A stretch of 64,000 nucleotides of DNA from Thermobifida alba. Its GTDB lineage: Bacteria > Actinomycetota > Actinomycetes > Streptosporangiales > Streptosporangiaceae. A program made the translations under genes and the position numbers. Of this stretch, positions 9,910 through 14,607 are shown piece by piece. The notes under the pieces were generated by a model, which worked only from the letters and a program-made list of their open reading frames with translations, ran no database searches and had not been told where the DNA came from. The stretch is from NCBI RefSeq assembly GCF_023208015.1, contig NZ_CP051627.1:2480001-2544000 (forward strand), given 5' to 3'. Every line of letters starts with the position of its first letter. Position 1 is the stretch's first letter.

Positions 9910-10148
9910 CGGAAAAAGGGCCTCACGTTCGCGGTCGCTCGGCGACGGACAGGAGACGGCGCCTGTTCCTGCCAGGATAGGCGCCCTCGGGGCAATGCGG
10001 TGAATCGCGGGAGCGGCCCCGGTGTCCCCGGGGTCGACCGGGCGGGCGGCGCCGTCGGGACCGCCGGCGGCCGCGGGACTCGCGCTGTGCTCCGCCGCGG
10101 CCCGTCCCGGCCCGCCGGGGGCGAGCCCTCTCCTCCGCCGGTCCGCGG

Positions 10149-11327
10149 TCACCGTGCCTCCCCGGTGCGCGCGTGCACCCCCAGGACCAGGCCGACCGCG
10201 GTGAGGTTGGCGACGGCCGCGCTGCCCCCGTAGGAGACGAACGGCAGCGGCAGTCCGGTGACCGGGCTGAGCCCCAGGGTCATGCCGATGTTGACGAACA
10301 CCTGGAAGCAGAACCAGGCCGCCACCCCGACGCAGACCAGGCGGCCGTAGGGCTGGTCGCAGCGGGCGGCGGTGCGCAGGACGCGCAGCAGCACCACGCC
10401 CAGCAGCACGATGACCGCGCACCCCCCGGCGAAGCCGAGCTCCTCGGCCACGACACTGAAGATGAAGTCGGTGTGCTGCTCGGGCACGAGCTTGCCGCTG
10501 GTCTGCCAGCCCTGGAACAGTCCGGCCCCGCCCAGCCCTCCCGAGCCGACCGCGATGAGCGCCTGGTTGACGTTGTACCCCGCCCCCAGCGGATCGGCGC
10601 CCGGGTCGAGGAACGAGACGAGCCGCGCCACTTGGTAGTCCTTGAGCAGGCCGAGCCACCACACCGCGAGCGCCCCCAGTGCGCCGCAGCCGAGCAGGCC
10701 CAGCGGCCAGCGCGGCGAGGCACCGGAGAGGGCGAGCATGGCCAGATGGATCACGCCCAGCACCAGCGCGCTGCCCAGGTCCGGTTGCAGCAGGACCAGC
10801 CCCGTCGGCACCGCCAGGACTCCCAGGCTGAGCAGCACCTCCCGGGCGGCGGGGGCGCGTGTCCGGTCGGGGGGTCCGCCCAGCACCGCGGCGACGGTCA
10901 GGATCAGCGCGATCTTGGCGGTCTCGGCGGGCTGGGCCTGGAGGCCGCCGACGGCGATCCAGGCCCGGGAGCCGTTGACGACCTCCCCCAGCGGGCCGAG
11001 CACCAGCAGCAGCGCGACGGTCACGGCCACGAGGAGCACCGGGGCGTAGGCGCGCACCCTCCGGTGGTCCACCGCGGCGACGGCGAGGCAGAGCGGCAGG
11101 GCCAGCAGGAGGTGTCCCAGATGCCGCCAGGCGTGCCCGGTGGGCCCCGGCGGCCCGCCCGGCTGGAGGGTGGCCGACCACACCATCAGGGCGCCCAGCA
11201 CGCCGAGGGTCAGCACCGCTGCCAGCAGCACCCAGTCGAGGCGGCGGGGCACGACCCGGGCGGTGAGCCGGACGAGGCGCGACAGCGGAGCGGGCAGTCG
11301 CACGGACTGGTCGAAACGGAGCGACAT
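10149..11327 (-). CDS. rodA: RodA/FtsW family peptidoglycan glycosyltransferase
   Basis: SEDS-family enzyme that polymerises lipid II glycan strands in the membrane. 392 aa with about ten hydrophobic segments. Family motifs are NGSRAWIAVGGLQAQPAE, LLQPDLGSALVL (catalytic Asp region) and GLPLPFVSYGGSAAVANL near the C-terminus. The ATG at 11325-11327 has GGAAAGG 6 bases upstream. It normally works with the class B PBP encoded just upstream (mrdA); here that gene is reduced to a 115-codon ORF ending 16 bases before the rodA start, so RodA must either use another PBP or act with the remnant. Confidence 0.93.
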   Translation of the reverse strand: MSLRFDQSVRLPAPLSRLVRLTARVVPRRLDWVLLAAVLTLGVLGALMVWSATLQPGGPPGPTGHAWRHLGHLLLALPLCLAVAAVDHRRVRAYAPVLLVAVTVALLLVLGPLGEVVNGSRAWIAVGGLQAQPAETAKIALILTVAAVLGGPPDRTRAPAAREVLLSLGVLAVPTGLVLLQPDLGSALVLGVIHLAMLALSGASPRWPLGLLGCGALGALAVWWLGLLKDYQVARLVSFLDPGADPLGAGYNVNQALIAVGSGGLGGAGLFQGWQTSGKLVPEQHTDFIFSVVAEELGFAGGCAVIVLLGVVLLRVLRTAARCDQPYGRLVCVGVAAWFCFQVFVNIGMTLGLSPVTGLPLPFVSYGGSAAVANLTAVGLVLGVHARTGEAR

Positions 11328-11343
11328 GCGGCGCCTTTCCGGA

Positions 11344-11691
11344 TCACTCGTCGACCGGACGGACCGCTCCGTCCGGCTGGTCCTCGAAAGGTCCGGCGAA
11401 GCGGGGTGCGGCGCCGTCGGCCGGCCGCATGCGTCCCCCGGCGCACCCGCCCCCGGCCCCGGCCGGGGGCCCGTGGCGCGCCGGCGGGCAGTCGGCGGTG
11501 TCCAGGAACCGCCCCTGGACGGCGGGGGCGACCACGTGGACGTGGTTGTTCTCGGCCAGCGCCCGGTAGTGCTCCCCCATCGGCACCTGGAGGTACCACA
11601 GCCGGCCCACGAGGAGCGCCAGCAGGCACACCACCAGCGCCTGGGCTGCGAGCACGGGCCAGTGCCCGCGGGCCCGCACCGGATCACCCAT
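11344..11691 (-). CDS. Truncated penicillin-binding protein 2 (mini-PBP2), transpeptidase domain absent
   Basis: 115 aa. After MGDPVRARGHWP comes one membrane segment (VLAAQALVVCLLALLVGRL) and WYLQVPMGEHYRALAENNHV, then VVAPAVQGRFLDT: this is the N-terminal anchor and first pedestal strand of elongation PBP2 (MrdA), just upstream of rodA where mrdA belongs. After FLDT the similarity stops and about 55 Pro/Gly-rich residues follow. I find no pedestal, SxxK, SxN or KTG box in any frame before rodA. The ATG at 11689-11691 has an excellent GGAGGGGA ribosome-binding site and overlaps the preceding ORF by 8 bases. It is either a decaying gene or a retained membrane microprotein; typical MrdA is 600-700 aa. 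Confidence 0.7.
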   Translation of the reverse strand: MGDPVRARGHWPVLAAQALVVCLLALLVGRLWYLQVPMGEHYRALAENNHVHVVAPAVQGRFLDTADCPPARHGPPAGAGGGCAGGRMRPADGAAPRFAGPFEDQPDGAVRPVDE

Positions 11692-11929
11692 CGGTTCCCC
11701 TCCCCTTCCGACCGCGCCGCGGCGCCGGTCGCGGCGGATCCGCCGGCGGGGGGAGCGTGCGCCGCCGGACGGGCCGCGGCCCCGGTGCGGGGCCGGACGG
11801 GACGGCAGAGGCGCCGCTGACCACCGCCGGGAGCGCGCCCCCCGCCCGCCCGCGCGGGGAGGCGGAGGCGTCCGCGGTTCCCGGTCCGGCCGCCGTGTCA
11901 CGGCCGGGGCCGACGGGTGTGGTGGTCAT
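11684..11929 (-). CDS. Pro/Arg-rich hypothetical ORF coupled to the mini-PBP2
   Basis: 81 aa starting MTTTPVGPGRDTAAGPGTAD and ending in a Pro/Arg-rich tail (RPVRRRTLPPPADPPRP, then RRGRKGRG). No membrane segment, no recognised family, probably disordered. The ATG at 11927-11929 has GAGG 6 bases upstream; the stop overlaps the start of the truncated PBP2 by 8 bases (ATGGGTGA), which suggests translational coupling. It occupies the position of mreD or mreC in related genomes but does not resemble either. Composition alone could explain such an ORF in GC-rich DNA, so it may not be real. Confidence 0.4.
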   Translation of the reverse strand: MTTTPVGPGRDTAAGPGTADASASPRGRAGGALPAVVSGASAVPSGPAPGPRPVRRRTLPPPADPPRPAPRRGRKGRGTDG

Positions 11930-12027
11930 GGGCATCCTCAGCGGTGTCGGACGGGCTACGGCTCGTCGGGCGGACGCGGCGCGGCCACGGGCGCCGCGGA
12001 GCGCTCCGTGACCCGCCACCCCCTAGC

Positions 12028-12053
12028 GTAACTCTCCGAAGTCACGTAGTTAC
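12028..12053. promoter_or_regulatory. Inverted repeat GTAACT-N14-AGTTAC upstream of the rodA remnant operon
   Basis: Two 6-bp arms (12028-12033 and 12048-12053) in one of the few less GC-rich stretches here, about 100 bases upstream of the ORF start at 11929 and just beyond the ndk terminator. On the minus strand it reads GTAACT...AGTTACGCTAG, so TACGCT could be a -10 box. It may be the old mreB promoter/operator now driving the rodA unit. No regulator can be named. Confidence 0.35.
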
Positions 12054-12090
12054 ACAAACGCGCCGGTTTGTCGCAACGTGCCGCAGACAG

Positions 12091-12128
12091 CACCGCGGCC
12101 GGACGGATGGTTCCGTCCGGCCGCGGTG
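12091..12128 (-). terminator. Terminator hairpin after ndk
   Basis: Perfect 17-bp stem CACCGCGGCCGGACGGA / TCCGTCCGGCCGCGGTG with a TGGT loop, 37 bases after the ndk stop. It closes the folC-DUF4233-ndk unit and isolates it from the rodA unit downstream. Confidence 0.85.
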
Positions 12129-12164
12129 CGGATGCGCTGTGCCGGTGTCCGGGGGCCGCCGAAC

Positions 12165-12572
12165 TCAGGCCAGGTCGGGGAAGAACAGTTTGATCTCGCG
12201 CTCGGCCGAGTAGGTGGAGTCCGAACCGTGCACGATGTTGGCCTGGACGTCCAGGCCGTAGTCACCGCGGATGGTGCCGGGGGCGGCCAGGACCGGGTCG
12301 GTCGCGCCAGCCAGGGAGCGGAACGCCTCGACCGCGCGGTTGCCCTCCACCACCATGGCGACCAGCGGACCGCCGGTGATGAACTCGACCAGCGAGGAGA
12401 AGAACGGCTTGTCGGTGTGCTCCTCGTAGTGGCTCCTGGCGGTCTCCTCGTCCAGGGTGCGCAGCTCAAGCGCGATGATCTTGAGTCCCTTGCGCTCGAT
12501 GCGGGAGATGACGTCGCCGACGATGTTGCGACGCACGCCGTCGGGCTTGATCAGGACAAGGGTGCGCTCCAC
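12165..12572 (-). CDS. ndk: Nucleoside diphosphate kinase
   Basis: Transfers the gamma-phosphate of ATP to NDPs through a phosphohistidine. 135 aa, the standard length: [20 protein letters not shown] at the start, [16 protein letters not shown] for nucleotide binding, and the active-site His in ANIVHGSDS. The start is the GTG at 12570-12572, with GAGGAG about 10 bases upstream; a longer reading to 12608 would add 12 residues with no homology. In actinobacteria ndk normally sits between folC/DUF4233 and mreB; here mreB is missing. Confidence 0.97.
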
Positions 12573-12716
12573 GGTTCTTCTCTCCTCGACGGGTCGTTCA
12601 CTGTGCACGGTGCCACCGGCCGGGCCCGCCGCTTCCGTGCGGCGTTCCGCCCCGGTGGTGGGTACCCTACCGGTTCGGCGGTCGCGTCCCGCGCGTTCCG
12701 GGCGGCAGCAGCCGGG

Positions 12717-13061
12717 TCAGGCTCCGCCCGCGTCCTGCGACGCGCCGCGCATCGCCTCGACGCGCCGTCCCAGGACCACCCCGGCGATCCACAGGCCGAC
12801 GAAGACGATGCCCAGGTAGGCGAGGCCCGGCACCACCAGGCCGCTGGCCAGGAACGCCGCCTGCAACACGCACGCGGCGTAGAAGCCCCAGGTGAAGCGC
12901 TGCAACGCGGCCAGGACCAGCGCAGCCAGGGCGAGACCGCCCCAGACTGCTCCGGCCAGGGCGGGCGAGTGTCCGCCGAGCTGGATGGCGACGGGGACGG
13001 CCAGTCCCAGCACCACCGCCTCGAAGGCCAGGACAACGGCGCAGACGGTCCGCACGGTCAC
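12717..13061 (-). CDS. DUF4233 family membrane protein
   Basis: 114-aa protein with four predicted membrane helices and a short hydrophilic C-terminus. The position between folC and ndk and the topology match the DUF4233 family, found almost only in actinobacteria at this locus; its function is unknown. The GTG start overlaps the folC stop by 4 bases (GTGA), so translation is coupled to folC. No catalytic motif is visible. Confidence 0.8.
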   Translation of the reverse strand: MTVRTVCAVVLAFEAVVLGLAVPVAIQLGGHSPALAGAVWGGLALAALVLAALQRFTWGFYAACVLQAAFLASGLVVPGLAYLGIVFVGLWIAGVVLGRRVEAMRGASQDAGGA

Positions 13062-14404
13062 TCCTTCTTCATCAGGTGGGTGGCGTCCCCCGCGGTGACC
13101 ACCGAGCCGGTCACCAGCACCCCGGCGCCGCCGAACTCGGTGTCCCGCTCGGCCAGGGTGACGGCCGCCTCGATGGCGTCGTCGAGACGGGCCGCCAGGT
13201 GGACGCGGTCGTCGCCGAAGACGTCCTCGGCGACGCGGTGGAGCTGCTCCGGCGGCAGCGCGCGCGGCGAGGAGTTGGCGGTGACCACGATCTCGTCGAG
13301 CAGCGGCTCCAGCGGCTCCAGGATCCCCTCGGCGTCCTTGTCCGCCAGGACCGCCACCACCCCGACCAGCCGGTCGAAGGAGAAGGCCTCGCGCACCGCC
13401 TCGGCCGTCGCGGCCATGCCCGCCGGGTTGTGCGCGGCGTCGACGAGGACGGTGGGGCTGGTCCGCACGATCTCCAGCCGTCCGGGCGAGGTGGCCGTGG
13501 CCAGGGCGGCACGCACCAGCTCGGGGTCGAGCCCCTCCTCACCCTCGGTGGGGGCGGCGAACGCCTCGACCGCGGCCACCGCCACGGCCGCGTTGGACGC
13601 CTGGTGGACGCCGAACAGCGGGAGGAAGATCCCGTCGTACCCCGCGCGCAGTCCCTTCACCGCGACCTGCTGGCCGCCGACGGCCAGGTCGCGGTGGACC
13701 ACGCCGAACTCCAGCCCCTCCCGCGCCACCTGGGCGCCCACCTCGGAGGCGCGGCGCAGCAGGGCCTGGGCGGCGGGCAGGGTCTGCTGGGCGAGCACCG
13801 CGACGCTGCCGGGCTTGATGATGCCCGCCTTCTCCGCGGCGATGCCCTCCACCGTGTCGGGCAGGTACTCCGTGTGGTCGACGGCGACGGGCGTGACGAC
13901 CGCGACGTCGGCCTCGACCACGTTGGTGGCGTCCCAGGCGCCGCCCATGCCCACCTCGACCACGGCCACGTCCACGGGCGCGTCGGCGAACGCCGCGTAC
14001 GCCATGACGGTGAGCACCTCGAAGAACGACATGGGCACGTCGCTTCGCTCGTCCACCATCCGCACGTACGGCAGCACGTCGGCGTAGAGGTCGGCGAACG
14101 CCTGCTCCGAGACGGGTTCGCCGTCGATGACGATGCGTTCGCGCATGCTCCTCAGGTGCGGGCTGGTGTAGCGTCCGACCCGCAGCTGCCGCTCGCGGAG
14201 CAGGGCGTCGATCATCCGCGCGGTGGAGGTCTTGCCGTTGGTCCCGGTCACGTGGATGACCCGGTAGTTGGTCTGGGGGTGGCCGAGCAGGTCCATGGCC
14301 GCGCGCATGCGGTCCAGTGTGGGGTGGATGACCGACTCGCCCGCGCGCGCGAGGATCTCCTTCTGCGCCTCCTGGTACTGCGGATGCACGTGTCCCCTGT
14401 TCAC
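13058..14404 (-). CDS. folC: Folylpolyglutamate synthase / dihydrofolate synthase
   Basis: Mur-ligase-fold enzyme that adds glutamate to dihydropteroate and folates with ATP. 448 aa. The P-loop is VTGTNGKTSTARMID, followed by GRYTSPHLRSMRERI (omega loop), VVEVGMGGAWDATNVV, VDHTEYLPDTVEGIAAEKAG and, in the C-terminal ligase domain, VLVDAAHNPAGM. The GTG start at 14402-14404 has GGAAA about 10 bases upstream. In Streptomyces-type genomes valS lies immediately upstream; here a divergent lipoprotein gene and clpX follow, so valS has moved. Confidence 0.95.
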   Translation of the reverse strand: MNRGHVHPQYQEAQKEILARAGESVIHPTLDRMRAAMDLLGHPQTNYRVIHVTGTNGKTSTARMIDALLRERQLRVGRYTSPHLRSMRERIVIDGEPVSEQAFADLYADVLPYVRMVDERSDVPMSFFEVLTVMAYAAFADAPVDVAVVEVGMGGAWDATNVVEADVAVVTPVAVDHTEYLPDTVEGIAAEKAGIIKPGSVAVLAQQTLPAAQALLRRASEVGAQVAREGLEFGVVHRDLAVGGQQVAVKGLRAGYDGIFLPLFGVHQASNAAVAVAAVEAFAAPTEGEEGLDPELVRAALATATSPGRLEIVRTSPTVLVDAAHNPAGMAATAEAVREAFSFDRLVGVVAVLADKDAEGILEPLEPLLDEIVVTANSSPRALPPEQLHRVAEDVFGDDRVHLAARLDDAIEAAVTLAERDTEFGGAGVLVTGSVVTAGDATHLMKKE

Positions 14405-14607
14405 AGCGTCGGTTTCCGGCGACTTGCGGTTTCAGCCTACCCCGGCGGCCGCCGCGCCCCTCCACCGCGGAGGCCGACGGGCCCCGGCCGCCCCGGTGCG
14501 CGGCCCGCCCCGCCCCTTGGCCTCTCTTTGCCGTCGCCGGTGCTCTGTCCCGCGCTCACCGGACAGTGGTGGAGGGGAGGTTGGCACCGGACGAGGGGAG
14601 TATCGGC

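Follow-up and report, generated by a model that had tools for sequence, protein, structure and literature searches.

The 115-codon open reading frame (ORF) directly before rodA in the window (the whole 64,000-nucleotide stretch of Thermobifida alba DNA analysed) is, on alignment with its relatives, a real PBP2 gene (mrdA) shortened by internal in-frame loss. Its product, referred to here as mini-PBP2, would with a probability of roughly 0.6 be a class B PBP of which only a membrane activator for RodA is left, a reading that draws on four species and on 38-codon anchors, next to a RodA that itself looks somewhat relaxed. The sequence evidence for this reading consists of the anatomy of the ORF, repeated in-frame loss, genome searches that did not recover the lost parts, constraint on the membrane anchor, and retention of both the former promoter region and the gene order.

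The slot between ndk and rodA

The studied genome (G000) is a single contig of 4.90 Mb. The slot lies on the minus strand, as do the features of the window described below, and measures 837 bases from the ndk stop to the rodA ATG, in agreement with the room of about 840 bases reported in an earlier note on this DNA; it holds one credible gene. Its upstream flank is ndk (12165..12608), which is 90-93% identical to ndk of the three congeners G001-G003. At the other end lies the partner gene rodA (10149..11327), which is intact and encodes a SEDS glycosyltransferase (PF01098, 320 bits). The mini-PBP2 gene, a transpeptidase-less mrdA of 115 aa with an ATG start, was delimited from the ORF and its relatives at 11344..11691, and 16 bases (11343-11328) separate its stop from the rodA ATG; the ORF coordinates, the quoted sequence WYLQVPMGEHYRALAENN and the 16-base gap are all as first described. 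The ribosome-binding site proposed earlier corresponds to a G-rich, Shine-Dalgarno-like stretch at 11692..11709, and comparable stretches precede the ATG in G001, G002 and G003, all of these being recognised by eye. Within the ORF, an apparently constrained anchor (residues 12-49; 11545..11658), made up of the transmembrane helix and the juxtamembrane stretch, is followed by a Gly/Ala/Pro-rich, unconstrained-looking linker (codons 65-104; 11380..11499) with a second-position GC of 0.80, and by the retained PBP2 C-terminal end with the stop (11344..11379; QPDGAVRPVDE against RPDGTVRPLDK in G001). A sigma-70 consensus promoter, a consensus of little weight for actinobacteria, was not found in 11340-12200, and an Rfam scan of 10000-14500 gave no family above threshold.

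Identity of mini-PBP2

A phmmer search of the PDB matched residues 15-64 of mini-PBP2 to MrdA (7kis, E 2.5e-4), and a Pfam search of the same protein returned no family at E<=1. Homology to PBP2 is secured by the relatives, since 33 of the 38 anchor residues are identical to those of the full-length G001 PBP2. Mini-PBP2 keeps the N-terminus, the transmembrane helix with its juxtamembrane stretch, and ~11 codons at the very end of the gene, while the pedestal body and the transpeptidase domain are gone. When the short proteins of G000, G002 and G003 (the minis) were each aligned to the G001 PBP2, every one was found to keep the start, the helix and the residues to at least 58, and to end with the last PBP2 residues in the same frame. 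A single hydrophobic peak is present in each mini (residues 13-31 in G000), and this helix is homologous to that of PBP2, as judged by hydrophobicity and, for G000, by the match to MrdA in the PDB.

The C-terminal ends of the minis are QPDGAVRPVDE in G000, VRPGGTVRLLDE and GDGTAARPADE, compared with VRPDGTVRPLDK in G001. In the nucleotide comparison, the final 33 nt of the G000 gene match the end of the G001 PBP2 gene in frame at 85%, and the final 71 nt of the G002 gene match at 79%; the G003 match is weak (23 nt only, 74%). The G000 tail also resembles, by palindromy, the hairpin behind ndk; that it sits right at the stop nevertheless favours descent from PBP2. The junctions of the internal loss differ among the three minis. 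The kept C-terminal end and the same frame thus indicate internal in-frame loss rather than a mere stump. Hence, the earlier description of a PBP2 membrane-anchor ORF stands as regards homology of the anchor, but its picture of an N-terminal remnant does not, since the C-terminal PBP2 end has also been kept.

PF00905, the domain that carries the SxxK, SxN and KTG boxes, is absent from the three minis in Pfam searches, which bears out the original observation that mini-PBP2 lacks these boxes; the only families returned were unrelated and sub-threshold (G002 and G003), with none for G000. PF03717, the PBP dimerisation or pedestal domain, is likewise absent from all three in Pfam. The G001 PBP2, used as a control, gave 210 bits for PF00905 and 105.6 bits for PF03717, with STFK at 355, SCN at 409 and KTG at 619. 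Judged by its position before rodA and its homologous N-terminus, mini-PBP2 is a class B PBP (PBP2/MrdA) by descent; by its lack of PF00905 and PF03717, it is not a class B PBP enzyme.

Gene content in the genus and its relatives

The genus was sampled by four species, G000 and the congeners G001, G002 and G003. In the outgroup G026 the order is ndk-mreB-mreC-mreD-mrdA-rodA, with MreD assigned from its place in the row and from a Pfam match below threshold. The order in G001 is ndk-mreB-full PBP2 (705 aa)-rodA, and the gap of 111 bases between mreB and PBP2 therefore leaves no room for mreC or mreD. G002 has ndk-mreB-mini-PBP2 (99 aa)-rodA, and G003 has ndk-mini-PBP2 (121 aa)-rodA with mreB absent. 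A mini-PBP2 (115, 99 and 121 aa) accordingly precedes an intact rodA in three of the four genomes and a full PBP2 does so in one, with a stop-to-rodA distance of 14-16 bases in all four. Stops or frameshifts in the anchor ORF, which would have spoken for decay, were looked for in the three congeners and not found. An assembly error was rejected as a source of the short ORF, as G000 consists of a single contig and short versions are seen in three different assemblies. A small ORF just downstream of rodA in G002 (L011 1-200) has, by eye, the look of an antitoxin-type DNA-binding protein.

Whole-genome searches of G000 did not find a relocated mrdA, mreB, mreC or mreD, so that, as far as these searches reach, the absence of the genes noted at the locus extends to the genome, and G000 does not carry an mre cluster in the sense of mreB, mreC and mreD together. 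The sole G000 match to the MreB profile is a 623-aa frame, presumably DnaK going by its size, and a true MreB is present only in G001 and G002. Profiles for MreC and MreD, each built from 12 outgroup loci, found nothing in the four genus genomes save one MreD row in G000 (E 0.07); they matched three of three outgroup genomes that are themselves profile rows and not independent, which shows that the search works but says nothing of its reach. With Pfam MreC, none of the four genus genomes exceeded the cut-off, compared with 8 of 14 control genomes. Second matches to the MreB profile (~60 bits) occur at G001:C9:35368-36132 (L175) and G002:C1:4351743-4352510 (L176), ~23 kb from a SEDS gene beside a transpeptidase gene, a pair taken here to be ftsW-ftsI; among the matches listed, none is in G000 or G003.

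Genes with a PF00905 transpeptidase domain number seven in G000, G002 and G003 and eight in G001, where the count includes the mrdA beside rodA. A family census covered 150 genomes with a completeness of 90 or more, with an anchor match in 148, and among the 133 with a best anchor match listed, frames below 600 aa were found only in G000, G002 and G003. In a contig scan, 52 of the best 80 named outgroup loci, a set from which the genus itself is absent, had a PBP2 anchor, in every case 1802-2338 bases before rodA and never short; the other 28 had no anchor match.

History of the losses

A species tree was built from an alignment of 13,876 columns over 33 proteins encoded in this region (best matches rather than curated orthologues), leaving out rodA by a composition filter, with a G026 match for 19 of the 33 and fewer in two other outgroups. 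G002 is outermost in this tree (support 100), followed by G001 and then by G000 with G003 (support 80); in the anchor, the latter two have an identical pair of replacements relative to G001 and G002. Of 15 arrangements compared in topology tests, two were unrejected by AU (p 0.84 and 0.21). The three topologies that place G001 outside the mini-bearers, for which a single truncation suffices, were rejected by AU (p 0.0017, 0.0034 and 0.0040), and the SH test agreed (p 0.032 or less). On these trees, PBP2 has therefore lost its enzyme part at least twice, barring a regain in G001.

That G001 took up a complete mrdA again was considered and is improbable, as there is no sign of recent import. The catalytic part of the G001 PBP2 is roughly equidistant from the 15 nearest outgroup loci (53-58%; 44-54% for 7 more distant ones) and not especially close to any of them; it tracks RodA, and the G001 anchor groups with the genus.

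The proposal that a single deletion removed the genes does not hold, as the intermediates G001 and G002 rule out one event. The relatives point to steps instead: mreCD was found in none of the four genomes, two of them lack a true mreB, and loss of the PBP2 domain occurred two or more times. The mre cluster of the genus would thus have been dismantled in steps, mreCD first, followed in some lineages by mreB and the enzyme part of PBP2.

The mreB relic and former promoter region

Behind the old mreB leader, a decayed relic of the 5' end of mreB, ~25 codons long, lies at 11929-11855, where 10 of 25 aa are identical to G001 MreB. The statement in the earlier note that no MreB-, MreC- or MreD-like sequence is present in the slot hence needs correction in its MreB part. 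The relic is inside a 288-nt block with 76.7% identity to the leader and start of G001 mreB, and this leader is kept upstream of mini-PBP2 in both species without mreB. The relic frame (11929-11684) is open for 81 codons and ends in a stop that overlaps the ATG of mini-PBP2; no likeness to MreB was seen beyond roughly codon 25. The conserved former promoter region includes a 26-nt palindrome, GTAACT-N14-AGTTAC (12028..12053), which occurs at one place per genome in G000, G001 and G003, in front of mreB or of the place that mreB used to occupy. The exact pattern is absent from G002, where it is one base off. The palindrome is possibly the site of a single-target regulator.

Selection on the anchor

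The relic raises the possibility that mini-PBP2 is a decaying pseudogene, made of 5' and 3' leftovers of mrdA cut too recently for similarity to fade. The adjoining mreB relic is a remnant of just this kind, the linker has a neutral look, and mreB and, mildly, rodA are relaxed in the genus. However, each of at least two truncations yielded a product in frame with a start, a Shine-Dalgarno-like stretch, a helix and a stop, and the anchor changes at a rate no higher than in full-length proteins.

The ratio of anchor distance to folC distance has a median of 1.18 over the six pairs in the genus, three of which involve the full G001 protein, and is 0.81, 1.02 and 1.34 for the mini-mini pairs. In outgroups with a full PBP2 it is 1.42 (36 pairs, with 9 of 14 loci used); the five loci left out, in which the anchor aligned over fewer than 30 columns, are more divergent than the rest, and the outgroup value therefore errs, if at all, on the low side. 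Comparison of 1.18 with 1.42 therefore gives no relaxation of the anchor, and the 38-residue anchor is, on this ratio, evolving no faster than in full-length PBP2s. The MreB/folC ratio is 1.38 in the single pair G001-G002 compared with a median of 0.33 in 91 outgroup pairs, by which MreB is relaxed in the genus; relative to folC, MreB of G001 and G002 (L039 7057-8091 and L040 8595-9629) evolves ~4x faster than in outgroups. The rodA/folC ratio of 2.33 (six genus pairs) against 1.50 (105 outgroup pairs), with overlapping ranges, gives a RodA that looks somewhat relaxed in the genus.

At codons where G001 and G002 agree, G000 has amino-acid changes at 2 of 28 in the anchor compared with 14 of 21 in the mreB relic (p 2e-5), and T at the second codon position is kept at 15 of 16 anchor sites in G000 (the same in G003) compared with 1 of 9 in the relic (p 7e-5); for G000 these relic contrasts are overstated if the PBP2 cut postdates the loss of mreB, a dependence from which the anchor/folC ratio is free. 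Against the activator reading, 5 of 28 such codons in the G003 anchor have changed amino acids; 6 carry silent changes. Decay at the locus is largely loss of T at second codon positions; second-position GC is 0.37 in the anchor, 0.80 in the G000 linker, 0.54 in the G003 linker and 0.84 in the relic. With a relic-like linker in G000 and a preserved anchor, it is the helix and its margin that are under constraint.

Anchor dN/dS, computed over 38 codons by a simple counting method that is biased in GC-rich genomes, is 0.11 for G000-G003, 0.14 for G002-G003 and 0.25 for G000-G002; against the activator reading stands the value of 0.55, not significant, for G000-G001. The dN/dS of rodA in the genus is 0.34-0.82. 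Overall, the earlier suggestion that rodA and the PBP2 anchor stayed as a unit agrees with the kept gene order and with an anchor that looks constrained in the substitution tests, and the pseudogene explanation is rated as quite unlikely.

An alternative, also unlikely, is that the ORF is a leader for rodA, whose expression would need translation up to 16 bases before it, the peptide itself being inert. The stop-to-rodA distance of 14-16 bases in every genome fits such coupling, as do the open frame and the retention of both ends of the old gene. Coupling requires a frame and not a sequence, yet the helix looks constrained and the linker free (second-position GC 0.37 vs 0.80). The preferred reading remains that the anchor acts as protein, on RodA.

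RodA and the proposed role of mini-PBP2

G000 RodA (PF01098, 320 bits) matched 8tj3_B at E 1e-60, with the catalytic-Asp segment EQHTDFIF aligned, and HTDFIF or HTDFVF is present in RodA of all four genus genomes. By this domain and the conserved catalytic Asp together, RodA is a SEDS glycosyltransferase. The entry 8tj3 is presumably the E. coli RodA-PBP2 complex. The G001 PBP2 matches 8tj3_C, 22-82 on 22-82, such that residue 47 corresponds to residue 47 if the alignment is gap-free. All three minis are homologous to the G001 PBP2 to at least residue 58, past the point that would match residue 47.

In the excerpted text of PMC10449877, D262 of RodA is given as the catalytic Asp, and the PBP2 helix packs on TM8/TM9 of RodA in the E. 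coli structure. There, a fusion of RodA with PBP2 truncated at residue 47 was stimulated to the same extent as the full-length fusion; binding and stimulation of RodA by the PBP2 helix are reported for E. coli and, by citation, for T. thermophilus. Against the activator reading, FRET experiments in E. coli, as excerpted from PMC7793260, led to the conclusion that the PBP2 helix alone does not give the wild-type interaction and that the periplasmic domain contributes. Also against it, polymerisation by RodA next to an inactive PBP2 is described in a passage of PMC6207328 as leading to a toxic futile cycle.

In the proposed mechanism, the RodA polymerase would have stayed together with the part of PBP2 that packs on it, namely the helix and the first residues outside the membrane. 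Mini-PBP2 would be made as a small protein, bind RodA and stimulate glycan polymerisation, so that a transpeptidase-less PBP2 keeps RodA stable or active. Cross-linking would be left to other transpeptidases, and seven transpeptidase-domain genes remain in G000. That the anchor serves some partner other than the RodA of the locus, either another SEDS protein or the localisation of some membrane protein, is highly improbable: three further SEDS-family matches are present in each of the four genomes, but every mini has retained its place next to rodA, and its anchor has the residues of the PBP2 that belongs to this RodA.

Comparison with known systems

Mini-PBP2 shares with PBP2/MrdA, the class B partner of RodA (PDB 7kis, 8tj3 and 6pl5), its position before rodA, a cytoplasmic tail, one transmembrane helix, the start of the juxtamembrane pedestal and the C-terminal tail. 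It differs in having no pedestal body, PF03717 or PF00905 and hence no SxxK, SxN and KTG active site. As in the RodA-PBP2-helix fusion of PMC10449877 (as excerpted), RodA is accompanied here by a PBP2 truncated close to the outer end of the helix; whereas that fusion was engineered, mini-PBP2 is a natural, separate polypeptide extending some 50-75 residues past the corresponding point. RagB (YrrS) of Bacillus subtilis, in the portion of PMC12457691 consulted, is a RodA-interacting proposed stimulator and in this resembles the role proposed here, but it is described as a distinct regulator and not as a stripped PBP; the likeness is by description only. Searches of open-licence full texts brought up no description of such a protein.

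The mreBCD-pbp2-sfr cluster of Streptomyces (PMC4416010, in part) has the same slot and order as the outgroup G026; compared with it, G000 has lost mreC and mreD, retains mreB as a relic and has a stripped PBP2. The same excerpt describes the cluster as a spore-wall synthesising complex, with tip growth independent of it, and the spore-wall role is also given in a passage of PMC4255298. "Elongasome", the name first applied to the lost genes, is therefore probably wrong, and by analogy it may be the spore wall, and not growth, that is affected by the change.

Implications

The order in which an mre system is lost can be read inside one genus, intermediates included. Glycan polymerisation and cross-linking are thought to be built together into SEDS-bPBP pairs. 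The odds are about even that in this genus a class B PBP has turned, at least two times, into a pure membrane activator and that the partner with which a RodA-type polymerase works has no transpeptidase, polymerisation being naturally split from cross-linking in a one-helix, beta-lactam-blind RodA complex. If true, this would be the natural counterpart of a test-tube construct and would define the minimum that RodA needs from PBP2. It would also allow one to test directly whether a SEDS polymerase is able to function in the cell when the transpeptidase of its own pair is missing.
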